Below are positions 1-39,127 of a stretch of 43,162 nt of DNA, in pieces. The DNA is from Sphaerochaeta sp. Phil3 (GTDB lineage Bacteria; Spirochaetota; Spirochaetia; Sphaerochaetales; Sphaerochaetaceae). Both the position numbers and the translations under genes were made by a program. Positions within the stretch are counted from its first letter, which is position 1. Every line of letters starts with the position of its first letter. The notes beneath the pieces were generated by a model. That model worked only from the letters and a program-made list of their open reading frames with translations. It did not search any database and was not told the DNA's origin. The stretch lies in NCBI GenBank assembly GCA_001940825.1, contig MSGT01000005.1:1-43162 (forward strand). Direction: 5' to 3'.

Positions 1-668
1 CTACTTAGCAAAGAGGTAAAAAAAACTCCACCAAGGGGTATTGACCAACAAAAACTCGGAAGAGCCAACTGGAAGCTATAAAAGCTGTGGAGTGCGAACT
101 GTCCTCAACAGTTTCTGGAGTTGACGAAATCATAGAATCTTTGTCTGAAGAAGAGAAGTCCGACAACAAGAGTAGCGAAGGGCAGGTGTTGTTGCTCAAT
201 GAAGAGGGAGATGCCTTTGTTCCTGCCGTTCTTTCAAAGAAAGCCAAAGAGCTTTCGAAGCTTGGTCCTTTCGAAGAGGACTCCTTTGAATCGAAAATTC
301 TGAATGCTTACGAACTGATGGAAAAAGCCAAAGGACTGAGATCATCTCTCAAATCAAAGGGAAATGACTTGACCAAAGCTACCATGGAAGTGTTCGAAAA
401 GCTTTCCAATGACGATGCACTCCTTCTTCTTGAAATGAAATGGGTGGATCCTCTAGTTGAGAAGATAGAAGCAATTCCTGATTCAATTCTTTCTAGTTTC
501 GTGTCCAGGATATCAGCTCTTTCCAAGAAATATGAATCGACCTTTGCGGATATCTCAAATGAGATAGAAGAGACCGAATCAAAGCTTTCTGCAATGCTCG
601 ATGATTTGGTTGGCAGTGAGTATGACATGAAAGGTCTAGAAGAGTTCAAAAAGCTTTTGAGAGGTTGA
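1..668 (+). pseudogene. hsdM: HsdM C-terminal part, type I methylase subunit, partial and apparently frameshifted
   Basis: This is the end of a type I restriction-modification methyltransferase subunit, cut by the left edge of the window. The tail reads like the HsdM C-terminus of gut-bacterial systems: MKWVDPLVEKI, then a helical stretch, then [15 protein letters not shown] before the stop. The frame has no start that fits HsdM: an in-frame TGA lies at 42-44. Bases 1-78 in the first frame read LLSKEVKKTPPRGIDQQKL, which resembles the residues HsdM has just before this tail. The coding frame therefore seems to shift near base 58-65, after an A8 run at 18-25. Either the gene is broken or the assembly has an error here. 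An ATG at 87 could start a 193-residue fragment without any catalytic motif. hsdS follows two bases after the stop. Family call fairly sure; frameshift moderately sure. Confidence 0.65.
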
Positions 669-670
669 AT

Positions 671-3600
671 ATGGATGATAAAAAAAGGATTCCTGCCATT
701 CGTTTCAAAGGTTTTACCGATTCTTGGGAACAGCGTAAGCTTGGTGATATATTCGAATACGAACAGCCGCAAGCTTATATAGTTGAAAGTGCTGAATACG
801 ATAACAGAAATAAAACTCCAGTTTTAACAGCAGGACAAAGTTTTATTTTAGGTTACACAGATGAAAACTTTGGAATTAAAAATGCAAATTCAGATAAGCC
901 CGTTGTTATTTTTGATGACTTCACTACATCGGTTCATTACGTTGATTTTCCTTTTAAAGTCAAGAGTTCTGCAATGAAATTGCTGACACTGGTAAATGGG
1001 AGGGATGATATTCATTGTGCTTACAATGTGTTGCAAAACATTGGGTATAAACCTGTTAGTCATGAGCGTCATTGGATTTCAACATTTGCAAAAATCAATG
1101 TTTATATACCTAAAAACGAAGCAGAACAAAAGTGCATTGGGGATTGTTCTTCAAGTTTGGATAACCTTATCACCCTTCATCAGCGTAAGTGCTTTTTGAT
1201 GATATTTTGCAGATGGGGTGATATAATGTTGCAAAACGGTAGGAAAAAGAGGTTTTTTCGAATGAGTTTCACCAGTGAAAAGGATTTTGAGAACGAATTG
1301 GTTACACTTCTAGGTGGAAAGGGATGGGAAAAGAAGCCAATCATGTATCCAACGGAACGTGTTTTGCTGGAGAACTGGAAGAGAATCCTCTATGTCAACA
1401 ATAACCAAAAGGATAGATTGGGGGAGTATCAGCTCACTGATGGGGAGATGGCTCAGATTATCGAGAAGATAACAGAGCTCAAGACCCCTTATAGGCTCAA
1501 TGGCTTCATAAACGGTAAGACGGTTACGATAAAGAGGGACAATCTCGATGACGGCCTTCACTTTGGAAAAGAGATAAGCCTTGACATATTCGATAGAGAC
1601 GAAATTGCTGCTGGTAGAAGTGTGTATCAGATTGCAAGACAGCCGGTTTTTCATTCGAAAAGCAAAATCGATAAGGACCGTAGAGGGGACATCATTCTTC
1701 TGATAAACGGAATGCCTGTAATACATGTGGAACTCAAGAAGAGTGGGGTTCCTGTCAGTCAGGCGATCAATCAAATTGGCAAATACTCAAAAGAAGGCGT
1801 TTTTACCGGCCTCTTTTCGTTGGTTCAAATCTTCGTTGCAATGACTCCTGAAGAAACATTGTACTTTGCAAATCCTGGTCCTGATGCAGATTTGAATGAC
1901 AAATACTTTTTCCATTGGGCGGACTTCAACAACAACCGCATGGACGACTGGCGGGATGTTGCAAGCAACCTTCTTTCAATACCAATGGCGCATCAGCTCA
2001 TTGGGTATTACACGATTGCAGACCGTACTGACAGTGTCCTGAAGGTCATGAGGAGCTATCAGTACTATGCTGCACGGGGAATCGTAAGCTCCTATTTGGA
2101 TAAGCATAAGGATAACCCTCAAAGAGGCGGATATGTATGGCACACAACTGGAAGTGGTAAGACAATGACGAGTTTCAAGTCGGCTCAGCTTATTGCCAAC
2201 TCAGGGAAAGTGGACAAGGTCCTGTTTGTAATGGATAGAATAGACCTTGGCACCCAGTCGTTGGAGACATACAGAAATTTCGCCAATGACGATGAGGATG
2301 TGCAAGGTACGGAAAACACCAGCATCCTCATTGGTAAGCTTAAAAGCTCTGCGCCAAACGACACCCTCATAGTAACCTCCATACAAAAACTGAGCAGGAT
2401 AAGAAAAGATGACTCCTGTTTATGTTTCGCTGATTTGGCGGAGATTCTTAAGAAGAGAATTGTCATAATTGTTGATGAGGCCCATAGATCTACATTTGGC
2501 GATGAGATGTTGACGATCAAGGATACATTCTCCAATGCTGTGTTCTTTGGCTTTACGGGAACACCAAGGTTTTCTGACGACGAAGACTCTGTAAAGGAGA
2601 CATCAACTGTCTTTGGAGATGAAATCCATCGTTATCTGATATCTGATGGAATCAGGGACAAGAACGTTCTTGGCTTTGATGTATACAAGGTTTCGACCTT
2701 CAAGGAAGAAGATTTAAGGATCCAGGTTGCACTCGCCCAGGCAAAGGCTTCATCCATAGATGAAGTCAACGCAGATCCCGTCAAAGCGAAGATTTTCTAT
2801 CACTTCAAAGATGACGTGAAGATGGCTTATCCAAAAGGCGAAGGAAAAGGAATAGAGGACTTTATTCCAAACTCTCAATACGAGACTTCTGTGCATAGAG
2901 AGATGGTTGTCAAAGATATAATCAATTCATTCAAGATGTCTTCCCAAGGTAGATACCATGCAATTTTTGCAACAAGCAGCATAATCGAGGCTATCGAATA
3001 CTACAGACTTTTGAAAAAACAAGCTCCCGAACTGAAGATCTCTTCAATGTTTGAAGCTGGTATTGATGACAACGATGCCAACACCACAGAGAAAGAGACT
3101 GGACTCAGGGAAATCATCGAAGACTACAATGGAATGTTCGCCTGCAATTATACATTTGCATCATTTCCCGCAATGAAGAAGGACATTGCAAACAGACTTG
3201 CCCATAAGAAACCATATGAAAGAGTCCCAAGAGAGCAGCAACTGGACATTTTGATTGTTGTGAGGCAGATGCTGACTGGCTATGATTCGAAATGGGTGGA
3301 TATCCTGTATGTAGACCAACTCATGGAACAGGCCAACTTGGTACAGGCTTTTTCTAGGACCAATAGACTCAACGACGAGGGGAAGAAGTTTGGGATCATT
3401 AGGTACTATAGAAGGCCTTGGACCATGGAACTGAATATACAACAGGCCTTTGAAAGGTATTCTGGCGATAAGCCTATTGGTGTTTTCGTGAACAAAATAG
3501 GAAAAAACCTTGTTTCGTTGAATGAAAGGTTCCACGAGATAAAAGTGTTGTTCGAAAGAGAAGGGATTTCCGATTTCTCAAAACTTCCAGAGGATAGGGT

Positions 3601-4348
3601 CGTAAAGGCGAAATTCGCCAAGTTGTTCAGAGAACTGACCGATTACCTCGAGAATGCAAGGCTGCAAGGAATGAAATGGGATGATGTATCTACGCATGCG
3701 AATGTTGAACTCGAAATAGACAAACCAACGTATGATAGCTTGCTTCTTAGATATCAGGAGCTTGCATTGGAACCAAGCGATGAAGATGATGGTGATTCCG
3801 GAGGAGACAACGTTCCATATGATCTTGATGGATACCTCGTTGATTTGAAGACAGACAGGATTGATTATGACTACATGAATAGTCGTTTTCACAAGTACAT
3901 CAAGTCTCTTTCCGCTGGTGTCAGCGAAGAAGAAAGGAATTCGTTGCTTGATGACCTTCATAGATCATTTGCAATGTTGTCTCAACAGGATCAACTATAT
4001 GCAAATAAGCTTATTACGGATATTCAGAATGGAAATATAGTCCTTGAGGAGAACAAGAGCTTCATGGATTATGTGGTTGAGTACCAAAAGGACGAATTGG
4101 ATGCGAAGCTGCAATACTTCAATGATGCATTTGGCATTGACTCTGATAAGGTCCGAGCTTTGGTCTATTCTGATGTCACAGATGAAAACTTGGATGAGTT
4201 TGGACGCTTTTCGGCTATCACTCAGGAGATTTCTGCAGAGAGGGCCGTGGGGTTCTATGCAGAGCATGGCAATGTCATGCTGCCATTCCAAGCCGTGATT
4301 CAAGCTAGGAATGAAGTGAAAAGTTTCATCCTCAACAAAGGTAAATAG
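671..4348 (+). CDS. hsdR: Half-size HsdS specificity domain fused in frame to HsdR, type I restriction endonuclease
   Basis: One open frame of 1225 residues. Residues 1-175 are a single HsdS target-recognition half, starting with the usual [15 protein letters not shown] and ending at [11 protein letters not shown], where a complete HsdS would continue into a second recognition domain. After about 22 unrelated residues it enters HsdR at residue 198 ([17 protein letters not shown]). HsdR is the DNA-translocating and cutting subunit: PD-(D/E)xK nuclease with D340, E354 and K356; Walker A HTTGSGKT with K497; DEAH box at 602; motif [10 protein letters not shown] from 892; helical C-terminus. I chose ATG 671 over an in-frame TTG at 665 because GAGAGG lies six bases upstream. 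A second start at 1262 could give free HsdR. A tyrosine recombinase follows. Families certain; whether the fusion protein is made is unknown. Confidence 0.88.
1247..1264 (+). other. Internal ribosome binding site and start that could give separate HsdR
   Basis: AAGAGG at 1247-1252 lies nine bases before ATG 1262, exactly where HsdR homologues begin. No stop separates it from the upstream hsdS half in the same frame, so both a fusion and a free HsdR are possible products. Confidence 0.45.
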
Positions 4349-4426: not shown

Positions 4427-5362
4427 ATGGTTAGAACCTCATCAAAAGGAACAGAGTTGTTCTGTTCTTACTACAAGTCGTGGATTACTGTCTACAAGGA
4501 GGGTGCAATACGGCCCGTCACAATGAACAAGTACTACATGACGCTTAGTTGGCTGGAAAGGCTGGCCCCAGATCTCCGTCTGCAGGACATGACAAGGATT
4601 GCATATCAAAAACTCTTGAATGACTATGCGGAATTCCATGAAAAGCAGACGACGATGGACTTCCACCACCAGTTGAAAGGGGCAATACTTGACGCTGTTG
4701 ATGAACGTTTGATTGAACGGGATCCAACAAGGAAGGCTATAATAAAGGGAAGAACCCCCAAGCATAAAAAACAAAAGTTCCTTAATCAATTTGAGCTTCA
4801 CAAACTTATAGCTGACCTTGATTTATCGGGTTCTTCTGTTACATGGGACTGGTTGATTCTGCTTGTCGCCAAAACAGGAATGAGGTTTTCTGAAGCTTTG
4901 GGACTTACACCAAAGGATTTCGATCTTAGGCATCAGATGCTTTCTGTGAACAAGACATGGGACTATAAAGGATGCGGAGGCTTCCTTCCAACCAAGAACA
5001 AATCGTCTGTGAGGAAGATTCCTTTGGATTGGCAGACTGTAATACAGTTCACTTCTCTTTTGAAAGACATTCCGGAAGAGAGACCCATATTTCTAATGGG
5101 TGATAGCATATATAACTCAACTGTCAATGGTATTCTTAGAAGACATTGTGAGCATTCAGAAATTCCCGTGATAACAATCCATGGGCTTAGGCACACGCAT
5201 GCTTCGCTGTTGCTATTTGCGGGGGTTTCGATTGCGAGCGTTGCAAGGCGGCTTGGTCATGCGAGCATGACAACCACTCAGAAGATATACTTGCATATAA
5301 TCCAGGAACTTGAAAACAAGGATATAGATCTTGTCATGCGTTCGTTGTCTGGCTTGAGCTAA
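4427..5362 (+). CDS. Tyrosine recombinase / phage-type integrase, hsdS-shuffling type
   Basis: A 311-residue tyrosine recombinase with an N-terminal SAM-like core-binding domain (about 8-105) and a C-terminal catalytic domain. Visible catalytic residues are R153 (TGMRFSEAL), a lysine near 190-192, H252 and R255 (HGLRHTH), H278 (LGHAS) and the nucleophile Y288. AAAGGAG lies 11 bases before the ATG. It sits 78 bases after hsdR in the same direction. Recombinases of this size next to type I systems (PsrA/CreX type) invert or swap hsdS segments through repeats. No inverted or second hsdS copy is present from here rightwards, so its substrate is either left of the window or lost. A short AGAGG/CCTCT hairpin follows the stop, before the convergent membrane gene. 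Family sure; role inferred from context. Confidence 0.87.
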   Translation: MVRTSSKGTELFCSYYKSWITVYKEGAIRPVTMNKYYMTLSWLERLAPDLRLQDMTRIAYQKLLNDYAEFHEKQTTMDFHHQLKGAILDAVDERLIERDPTRKAIIKGRTPKHKKQKFLNQFELHKLIADLDLSGSSVTWDWLILLVAKTGMRFSEALGLTPKDFDLRHQMLSVNKTWDYKGCGGFLPTKNKSSVRKIPLDWQTVIQFTSLLKDIPEERPIFLMGDSIYNSTVNGILRRHCEHSEIPVITIHGLRHTHASLLLFAGVSIASVARRLGHASMTTTQKIYLHIIQELENKDIDLVMRSLSGLS

Positions 5363-12522: not shown

Positions 12523-13401
12523 TTACTTGATGTTGTTGACTTCCTCAACGCTCAGGTTCGCGGCCTTGGCTATAGCTTCAATGGGGAAACCTTGTTCCTT
12601 TAGGCTTTTTGCCATGCGATTTGTGGCATTGGCTTCGCCTTTTGCTTCTCCAATGGAAATCCCCTCGGCCCTTCCGTCCTTGTAGCTTTCGATGAGGTTC
12701 AGTTCGTACTTCATATATCCCTGCCTCCACTCTTCGTCCCCGTTTATGTCAAGGACGTACCTGTCCAGCTTTCTCACGAATTCGTCGTCGCTGTCCTCTC
12801 CTGTGCCTATGGAGGAGACCCCTCCGTTGAGGTATTTGAAGAAGGCGTCCATGGCATGGCTCGAATCTCCTACGGAGCCCTTCGTGTTCACGAATATAGT
12901 ATACCTGCCGTCGCCCAAAGGCAAGTCCGGCTCGTCCCTGCATAGGTTCTCGAAGAAGTACGTCTTCCTGTTTCGCCTGAAGGGGTCGAAGAGGCATATG
13001 AATATGACATAGCCCTTCTTGAGCGCATTGTAGTCAAGCCCCTTGTCCAGCATGTTCGCATCCATCATGGACGAGTACATCCTCGTCCTCCTTGGAAGGT
13101 TGCCCTTGTCCACCTTCTGGATCTCCATGTCGTAGACTCCGTCCCCATCCTCGAAGTACACGTCAAGGCGTATGCTCTTGTTTGCGGGGTTGAAAACAAC
13201 GTACTTCTGTGTCACCGAAGAGGGTGCATCCTTGTACTCCAATGACTTCACTTTGCGCCCATTGAATATGGTCTCCAGCAGACCTATGCAGGCGTCCCTG
13301 CACTGCATGACCGTGGAGAACATGAGGTCGTTTTCAAGGGGTACGTCCCATCTTTCGGTCCTCCCAAAAACCTTTTGTGAATCGTTGTGCTTCTTGCTCA
13401 T
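12523..13401 (-). CDS. Rpn-type PD-(D/E)XK nuclease / putative transposase family protein
   Basis: A 292-residue protein of the recombination-promoting nuclease (Rpn, PF12784-like) group. The N-terminal part has the standard opening, NDLMFSTVMQ near 24-33. The nuclease core is D80 (IRLDVYF) with E93 and Q95 (YDMEIQ), the E-x-Q form of the PD-(D/E)XK site. FFKYLNGG and the basic, Ala/Glu-rich C-terminal segment (GRAEGISIGEAKGEA, then a small HTH-like end LKEQGFPIEAIAKAANLS) are typical. These proteins are often multicopy in gut bacteria and can promote RecA-independent recombination. It has its own AAAGGAGGT site and a TGG-TATTAT promoter. Appears intact. Confidence 0.87.
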   Translation of the reverse strand: MSKKHNDSQKVFGRTERWDVPLENDLMFSTVMQCRDACIGLLETIFNGRKVKSLEYKDAPSSVTQKYVVFNPANKSIRLDVYFEDGDGVYDMEIQKVDKGNLPRRTRMYSSMMDANMLDKGLDYNALKKGYVIFICLFDPFRRNRKTYFFENLCRDEPDLPLGDGRYTIFVNTKGSVGDSSHAMDAFFKYLNGGVSSIGTGEDSDDEFVRKLDRYVLDINGDEEWRQGYMKYELNLIESYKDGRAEGISIGEAKGEANATNRMAKSLKEQGFPIEAIAKAANLSVEEVNNIK

Positions 13402-38185: not shown

Positions 38186-39127
38186 TCATTTCCGATTGAG
38201 TTCTTGTTCCAGCTCCTCTATGGTAGGCAGAGTGCCTTTGAATTCACTCTGAATGAAATTTGTTATTCTATATTCGGAGATTCCAATGGGCACCTTTACT
38301 GCATTGGTGGAATACTGGGCAAGAATATTGTCTTTGGTTTTGCATATGAGAAGTCCTATTGTTGGAAGATCTCCTTCTCGTTTCATTATTCCATCGACAG
38401 CAGAGACGTATGTAAGAAGTTGGCCCATGTCCTTTGGGTCGAAGTCGGACACTTTTACCTCTACGACTACGAAACAATGGATTTGGAAATTATAAAACAA
38501 CAGATCTATGAATTGCTCAGTTTTGCCAACAACAAGTCGGAACTCTCTACCAATAAAAGAAAACCCTGTTCCAAGTTCCAGTAGGAATTTCTGGATATTG
38601 TTCATCAATGCATCTTTGAGTTCTTTTTCATCGTACTGTTGTCGTATAGTCAGGAAATCAAAATTGTATGGATCTTTAGTTATCTCTTGGGCCAAATCTC
38701 CTTGTGGGGTTGGTAGTGACTGTGAAAAATTGGTTATTGCTTTGCCTTGACGTTCATATAAATCCGAATCAAGCCAATTGAGCAGGGTTGCCCTTGACCA
38801 ACTATTGTCTATGGTTTTCCGAATGTAGAACAGAGCCTTTTCTTCGTTTCCACCACACTTGTCCATGAGGATTCTGTGGTGTCCCCATGGAATTCTGAAT
38901 ATGCACTCTGTTTCATCCACAAGTTGTGGATGATTTTCTCCAATATCTTGTAAAGAACTTTCGTCCACAACTTGTGGACGAAATGCAAGAGGATAAAGTT
39001 CATAGAATCTGTGCATATATTTCAAATTTGTTGAAGAAAACCCTTTTGCATCAGGGATGGCATGTTTGTTCGATTTGAGTGAAAATGTGCTATATGACTT
39101 GTATCTAGAGGAGGTTTGGGTATTCAT
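38186..39127 (-). CDS. DUF1016 (YhcG-type) PD-(D/E)XK nuclease, N-terminally truncated
   Basis: 313 residues. It joins the DUF1016 family at GFSSTNLKYMHRFYELYP and then reads PWGHHRILMDKC, NWSRATLLNWLDSDLYERQGKAITNF and the C-terminal nuclease domain: FLLELGTGFSFIGREFRLVVGKTEQFIDLLFYN and IHCFVVVEVKVSDFDPKDMGQL, with D in FIDLLF and E-x-K in VEVKV. The first 50-60 residues usually found before GFS are missing and are replaced by about 20 unrelated ones, so the gene is probably 5'-truncated. Between HRFYELYP and PWGHH is a repeat, RPQVVDE and HPQLVDE, coded by two perfect palindromes. Such nucleases are found near type I systems and other defence genes. Might still make a nuclease fragment. 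Confidence 0.82.
   Translation of the reverse strand: MNTQTSSRYKSYSTFSLKSNKHAIPDAKGFSSTNLKYMHRFYELYPLAFRPQVVDESSLQDIGENHPQLVDETECIFRIPWGHHRILMDKCGGNEEKALFYIRKTIDNSWSRATLLNWLDSDLYERQGKAITNFSQSLPTPQGDLAQEITKDPYNFDFLTIRQQYDEKELKDALMNNIQKFLLELGTGFSFIGREFRLVVGKTEQFIDLLFYNFQIHCFVVVEVKVSDFDPKDMGQLLTYVSAVDGIMKREGDLPTIGLLICKTKDNILAQYSTNAVKVPIGISEYRITNFIQSEFKGTLPTIEELEQELNRK
38913..38983. repeat. Two perfect palindromes inside the DUF1016 gene
   Basis: TCATCCACAA / TTGTGGATGA around one base (38913-38933) and TTTCGTCCACAA / TTGTGGACGAAA around one base (38959-38983). Centres are 48 bases apart, that is 16 codons. They encode the repeated PQxVDE in the linker before PWGHH. Confidence 0.85.

Follow-up and report, generated by a model that had tools for sequence, protein, structure and literature searches.

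The specificity fragment and the restriction subunit that share a single open reading frame near the start of this DNA very probably belong to a Type I restriction-modification locus of the tyrosine recombinase-associated kind that has decayed and is probably locked, and the continuity of the two genes would be incidental. The specificity gene ends exactly at a DNA-conserved recombination core, the modification gene is broken by an insertion sequence, and the restriction gene possesses its own start site. An initial annotation had raised two readings of the frame: a specificity half tied to HsdR as a new arrangement, or decay after a recombination event that removed the second half. The evidence presented here favors the second.

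The window analyzed is the whole of contig C5 (43,162 nucleotides) from Sphaerochaeta sp. Phil3, and the features of the locus are collected in Table 1. On the plus strand the frame is open from 665 or 671 to the stop at 4348, with 1227 codons counted from a mechanically assigned TTG at 665; the natural start of hsdS is the ATG at 671, two bases past the hsdM stop codon (666–668). The absence of a stop between the two subunits was thus reported correctly, as were the coordinates, and so was the presence of a single recognition half. The frame holds one HsdS piece with one target recognition domain (TRD; Methylase_S match at residues 20–175), followed directly by a 72-nucleotide tail and a full HsdR (HSDR_N, ResIII/SWI2_SNF2, T1R_D3-like, and EcoR124_C domains at residues 302–1188), which includes the nuclease, the SF2 motor, and the C-terminal domains. 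A domain profile search found no methyltransferase domain in the 1227 codons. Elsewhere in the window, two open reading frames on the minus strand (12523–13401 and 38186–39127) resemble, by eye, Rpn/PD-(D/E)XK transposase-type and DUF1016-type nuclease proteins.

Table 1. Features of the Type I locus at the start of contig C5
Feature	Coordinates	Strand	Remarks
Insertion sequence, right end	1..66	+	terminal inverted repeat at 43–66; multi-copy; interrupts hsdM
8-bp target-site duplication AACTGGAA	67..74	.	other copy at the end of C48; exact flank match
hsdM, 3' remnant	75..668	+	5' part on contig C48
hsdS fragment	671..1189	+	N-terminal conserved segment and one EcoR124-type TRD; ends at recombination core; Methylase_S
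5' TRD boundary site TGGGAACAGCGTAAG (WEQRK)	725..739	+	CAG CGT AAG nearly fixed at TRD starts
3' TRD boundary core ATCACCCTTCATCAGCGTAAG	1169..1189	+	putative recombinase site; synonymous codons nearly fixed
Tail, 24 open codons	1190..1261	+	links hsdS fragment to hsdR; without homology; contains the hsdR Shine-Dalgarno sequence (1248–1252)
hsdR, intact, EcoR124-like	1262..4348	+	Pfam, TIGR00348, PDB 2w00
Tyrosine recombinase	4427..5362	+	PF00589; kind found beside switchable hsdS genes

The half-HsdS is 173 residues long, and its TRD terminates with the sequence ITLHQRK. This TRD matches TRD1 of EcoR124II HsdS with a score of 100 bits and is 44–50% identical to 13 other TRDs. Signs of decay were sought over 45 conserved columns and were not found, with deviations in only 4 of them, and the fragment thus has the single intact TRD of a functional half-HsdS. 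Comparison with relatives indicates that the central helix, the second TRD, the final helix, and the stop codon are all missing. In active hsdS genes the stop is located 23 codons past the last core, after a lysine-rich helix, and the sequence that follows the core here is unrelated to that conserved helix. The fragment consequently has neither the conserved helical spacer of a functional HsdS nor the central region of a functional half-HsdS. It is also the only Methylase_S match in the assembled genome.

The gene for the modification subunit is interrupted as well. Contig C48 holds the first two thirds of hsdM, and the gene is cut by the end of that contig. The repeat CCAACAAAAACTCGGAAGA is found on the ends of both C48 and C5 and at a total of 18 places in the genome, nearly all of which are contig ends. 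When read outward, C48 carries a left form (ACCC) and C5 a right form (AGCC), with identical 8-bp flanks. Four further pairs of left and right contig ends (C20/C54, C67/C49, C32/C1, and C9/C23) each have exact 8-bp flanks in common (ATAAAAAG, CTTTTTTC, GTTTTTGT, and GAAAATCT). Such paired ends with shared flanks are characteristic of a multi-copy insertion sequence, here with terminal inverted repeats of ~24 bp (GGSTCTTCCGAGTTTTTGTTGGTC) and 8-bp target duplications; this element breaks the assembly at many places. Removal of the element and one copy of the duplication restores an in-frame HsdM of 865 amino acids whose junction aligns without gaps to four relatives. Hence, hsdM is interrupted by an insertion sequence in the assembled genome, a result obtained at the level of the assembly, where the element lies at a contig junction and is not read through. 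A one-base frameshift in hsdM near position 75 had been considered and was dropped once the end of the element and the 8-bp duplication were recognized. Assignment of the element to the ISL3 family was also set aside; the PF01610 fragments are on C39 and C64, neither of which is among the contigs listed with the repeat end. The assembled genome contains no second hsdM, the sole N6_Mtase match being the gene on C48, and the intact HsdM of a functional Type I system is therefore missing from the locus. With a half-HsdS that stops short of the central conserved region and no intact HsdM, the locus would not be expected to provide a working methylase.

The restriction gene is most likely translated separately from the hsdS fragment, judging from its start region. 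The HsdR proteins of 17 relatives align from the ATG at 1262 or from no more than 2 residues away, the PADLOC HsdR profile begins at the same ATG, and the sequence AGAGG is found 9 nucleotides upstream. With a conserved start codon and this upstream motif, translation can begin at 1262. We surveyed 61 relatives, 139 genomes of the family, and 393 genomes of the phylum (overlapping sets, ~500 distinct genomes) and found no other case in which S and R share one open frame; all of the other HsdR matches begin at or near their own start, or have stops where they reach into HsdS. Searches returned one relative among genome contigs, nothing for this protein among viral contigs, and nothing in E. coli genomes. 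Our literature search, with narrow terms that make its negative result weak evidence, found no HsdS–HsdR fusion. The AlphaFold model of the half-HsdS, the tail, and the N-terminus of HsdR was poor (mean pLDDT of 40).

A functional fusion, in which two half-HsdS–HsdR chains would pair with HsdM and read a palindromic site, is very unlikely in light of these results. In its favor, the two genes are in phase with no stop between them, the TRD and the HsdR domains are well preserved, and half-HsdS proteins can work as dimers (PMC3874165). However, the helix used for dimerization and for subunit spacing is absent, hsdM is interrupted and has no substitute in the genome, hsdR has its own start and ribosome binding site, the junction peptide has no homolog, and no second S–R frame occurs in the ~500 genomes searched. 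The proposal of a new fused arrangement is accordingly unsupported.

The continuity of S and R is weak evidence of design and is unremarkable for a feature that was chosen for being open. The probability that a random tail of 24 codons would be open was calculated to be 11% with the composition of the tail and 18% with the local intergenic composition; since one third of all joins are in phase, an open, in-frame join would arise by chance in ~4–6% of cases. Local alignments of the tail with the core-adjacent sequences, the rest of the window, and C48 were no better than those of shuffled sequences. An origin of the tail in the sequence that precedes the recombinase gene, as would be the case in a silent cassette, was rejected because the core-adjacent local alignment was also at the shuffled level. 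A promoter-like site with an extended –10 element (TGATATAAT; 10 of 12 matches) was noted inside the tail at 1199–1227, and the regional total of promoter-like sites is not above chance.

The point at which the HsdS piece stops is a 21-bp core that is conserved at the DNA level. In three relatives that have silent cassettes, all TRDs, whether active or silent, end at the same core. Among 33 TRD ends from 15 loci, the codons ATC ACC CTT CAT CAG CGT are each nearly fixed (33/33, 30/30, 32/33, 32/32, 31/33, and 30/32 for the common residue), while neighboring codons are mixed, and CAG CGT AAG is common to TRD starts and ends. This pattern of codon usage suggests that the cores at the TRD boundaries are recombinase sites. 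Even distant genera share the 21-bp core ATCACCCTTCATCAGCGTRAG at TRD ends as conserved DNA, and the CAGCGTAAG part of it is also present at TRD starts. The core is carried by loci L022, L028, L029, L039, L076–L082, L090–L099, and L102, and looks like a widespread recombinase site. The core at 1169–1189 is present in a single copy, with no second good match in the assembled genome.

The tyrosine recombinase encoded downstream of hsdR is 67–74% identical to recombinases that adjoin hsdS cassettes in relatives. Most of the nearest relatives carry hsdM, a complete hsdS of ~400 amino acids, and hsdR; in intact relatives the active hsdS lies between hsdM and hsdR, with two TRDs that each end at a core. 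Silent half-hsdS cassettes flank the recombinase gene on both sides in G015 (L022), L039, and L077. The linked tyrosine recombinase of a phase-variable Type I locus is thus present, but at least two recombination sites with alternative TRD cassettes are not; since the assembled genome yields a single good core and a single Methylase_S match, the switch is without a partner, and the locus is probably locked. At 95.9% completeness and in 72 contigs, the assembly may lack a cassette located elsewhere.

In genome G025, from the same bacterial family, a half-hsdS (L023, 6680–7303) is cut at or just past the core, ~40–50 nucleotides before hsdR. This locus has an intact hsdM, a recombinase gene, and one core, and no second core was found in the genome. 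It differs from the locus described here in that hsdM is intact, the half-hsdS is closed by a stop codon of its own and runs into the beginning of hsdR in a different frame, and the recombinase gene is on the opposite strand. G025 suggests that truncation at the core recurs, and the two cut points suggest the involvement of the recombinase, by analogy with the pneumococcal tvr locus. At tvr/SpnIV, TRDs are shuffled at short repeats by a recombinase, and when an excised circle is lost, the hsdS locus that stays behind is shortened (PMC6265443), which resembles the situation found here. The tvr recombinase gene is itself carried by the excised DNA (PMC6265443), whereas the one described here is downstream of hsdR and has been retained.

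A reversible OFF phase of a switching locus, which would revert by recombination at the core, is improbable, if somewhat less so than a working fusion. It would fit the intact recombinase, the cut exactly at the core, the similar state in G025, and the excision that shortens tvr loci. Neither the assembled genome nor G025, however, offers a second core or cassette, leaving no chromosomal partner as assembled, and the interruption of hsdM is a separate defect. There is little likelihood that the S–R junction is an assembly artifact, that is, a misjoin within a variable or multiallelic locus. Recombining loci are difficult to assemble from short reads, and the contig begins, in a repeat, just 1.2 kb upstream of the junction. 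The join is nonetheless internal to a contig of 43 kb, the assembly yielded no further contig with a core, and G025 is truncated at the same point.

The locus is related to several known systems. Its HsdR (PDB 2w00) and its TRD are homologous to those of the Type IC enzymes EcoR124I and EcoR124II, which have separate M, two-TRD S, and R subunits, unlike the one-TRD S in frame with R and the interrupted hsdM found here. TRD1 of EcoR124 recognizes GAA, and the functional half-HsdS proteins EcoR124I delta50 and EcoDXXI delta C recognize symmetric sites, GAA N7 TTC in the case of EcoR124I delta50 (PMC3874165). These proteins and the HsdS1 of NgoAV, 208 amino acids in length (PMC9577141), have one TRD, as does the fragment here. 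The engineered functional half-HsdS that was examined retains the central conserved region (PMC6158711), whereas the present chain leaves homology directly after the TRD. Inverting phase-variable Type I loci such as SpnD39III (PMC7394358, PMC4948785) have a tyrosine recombinase and conserved hsdS sites, both of which are also found here, but the spare hsdS cassettes of the relatives are missing and one site is left. In the single-chain Type ISP and IIG enzymes, one polypeptide carries nuclease, methyltransferase, and TRD; the frame described here has no methyltransferase.

The favored explanation, degradation of a recombinase-associated locus, runs as follows. In relatives with silent cassettes, recombination at the cores can exchange TRDs. 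In the present locus hsdS was cut at the core, probably by the action of the recombinase, with the loss of the parts that comparison with relatives identifies as missing. A short, unrelated tail now follows the core, open and in frame with hsdR by chance. An insertion sequence additionally breaks hsdM, which would leave no working methylase and no working Type I enzyme. Because the TRD, hsdR, and the recombinase are all intact, the decay is recent or partial. A half-HsdS without the helix might have a use, given that it is found beside an intact hsdM in G025. The stronger proposal, that such a half-HsdS beside or joined to HsdR, as in G025 and here, is a recurrent minimal state whose fused chain works where hsdM is uninterrupted, is highly improbable.

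Damage can thus produce an attractive fused open frame: the specificity half ends where a recombination core lies, and the break in the methylase gene is just beyond what one contig shows. The core marks where TRDs end in recombinase-linked Type I loci from many genera, and could help to locate those that are switchable or locked.
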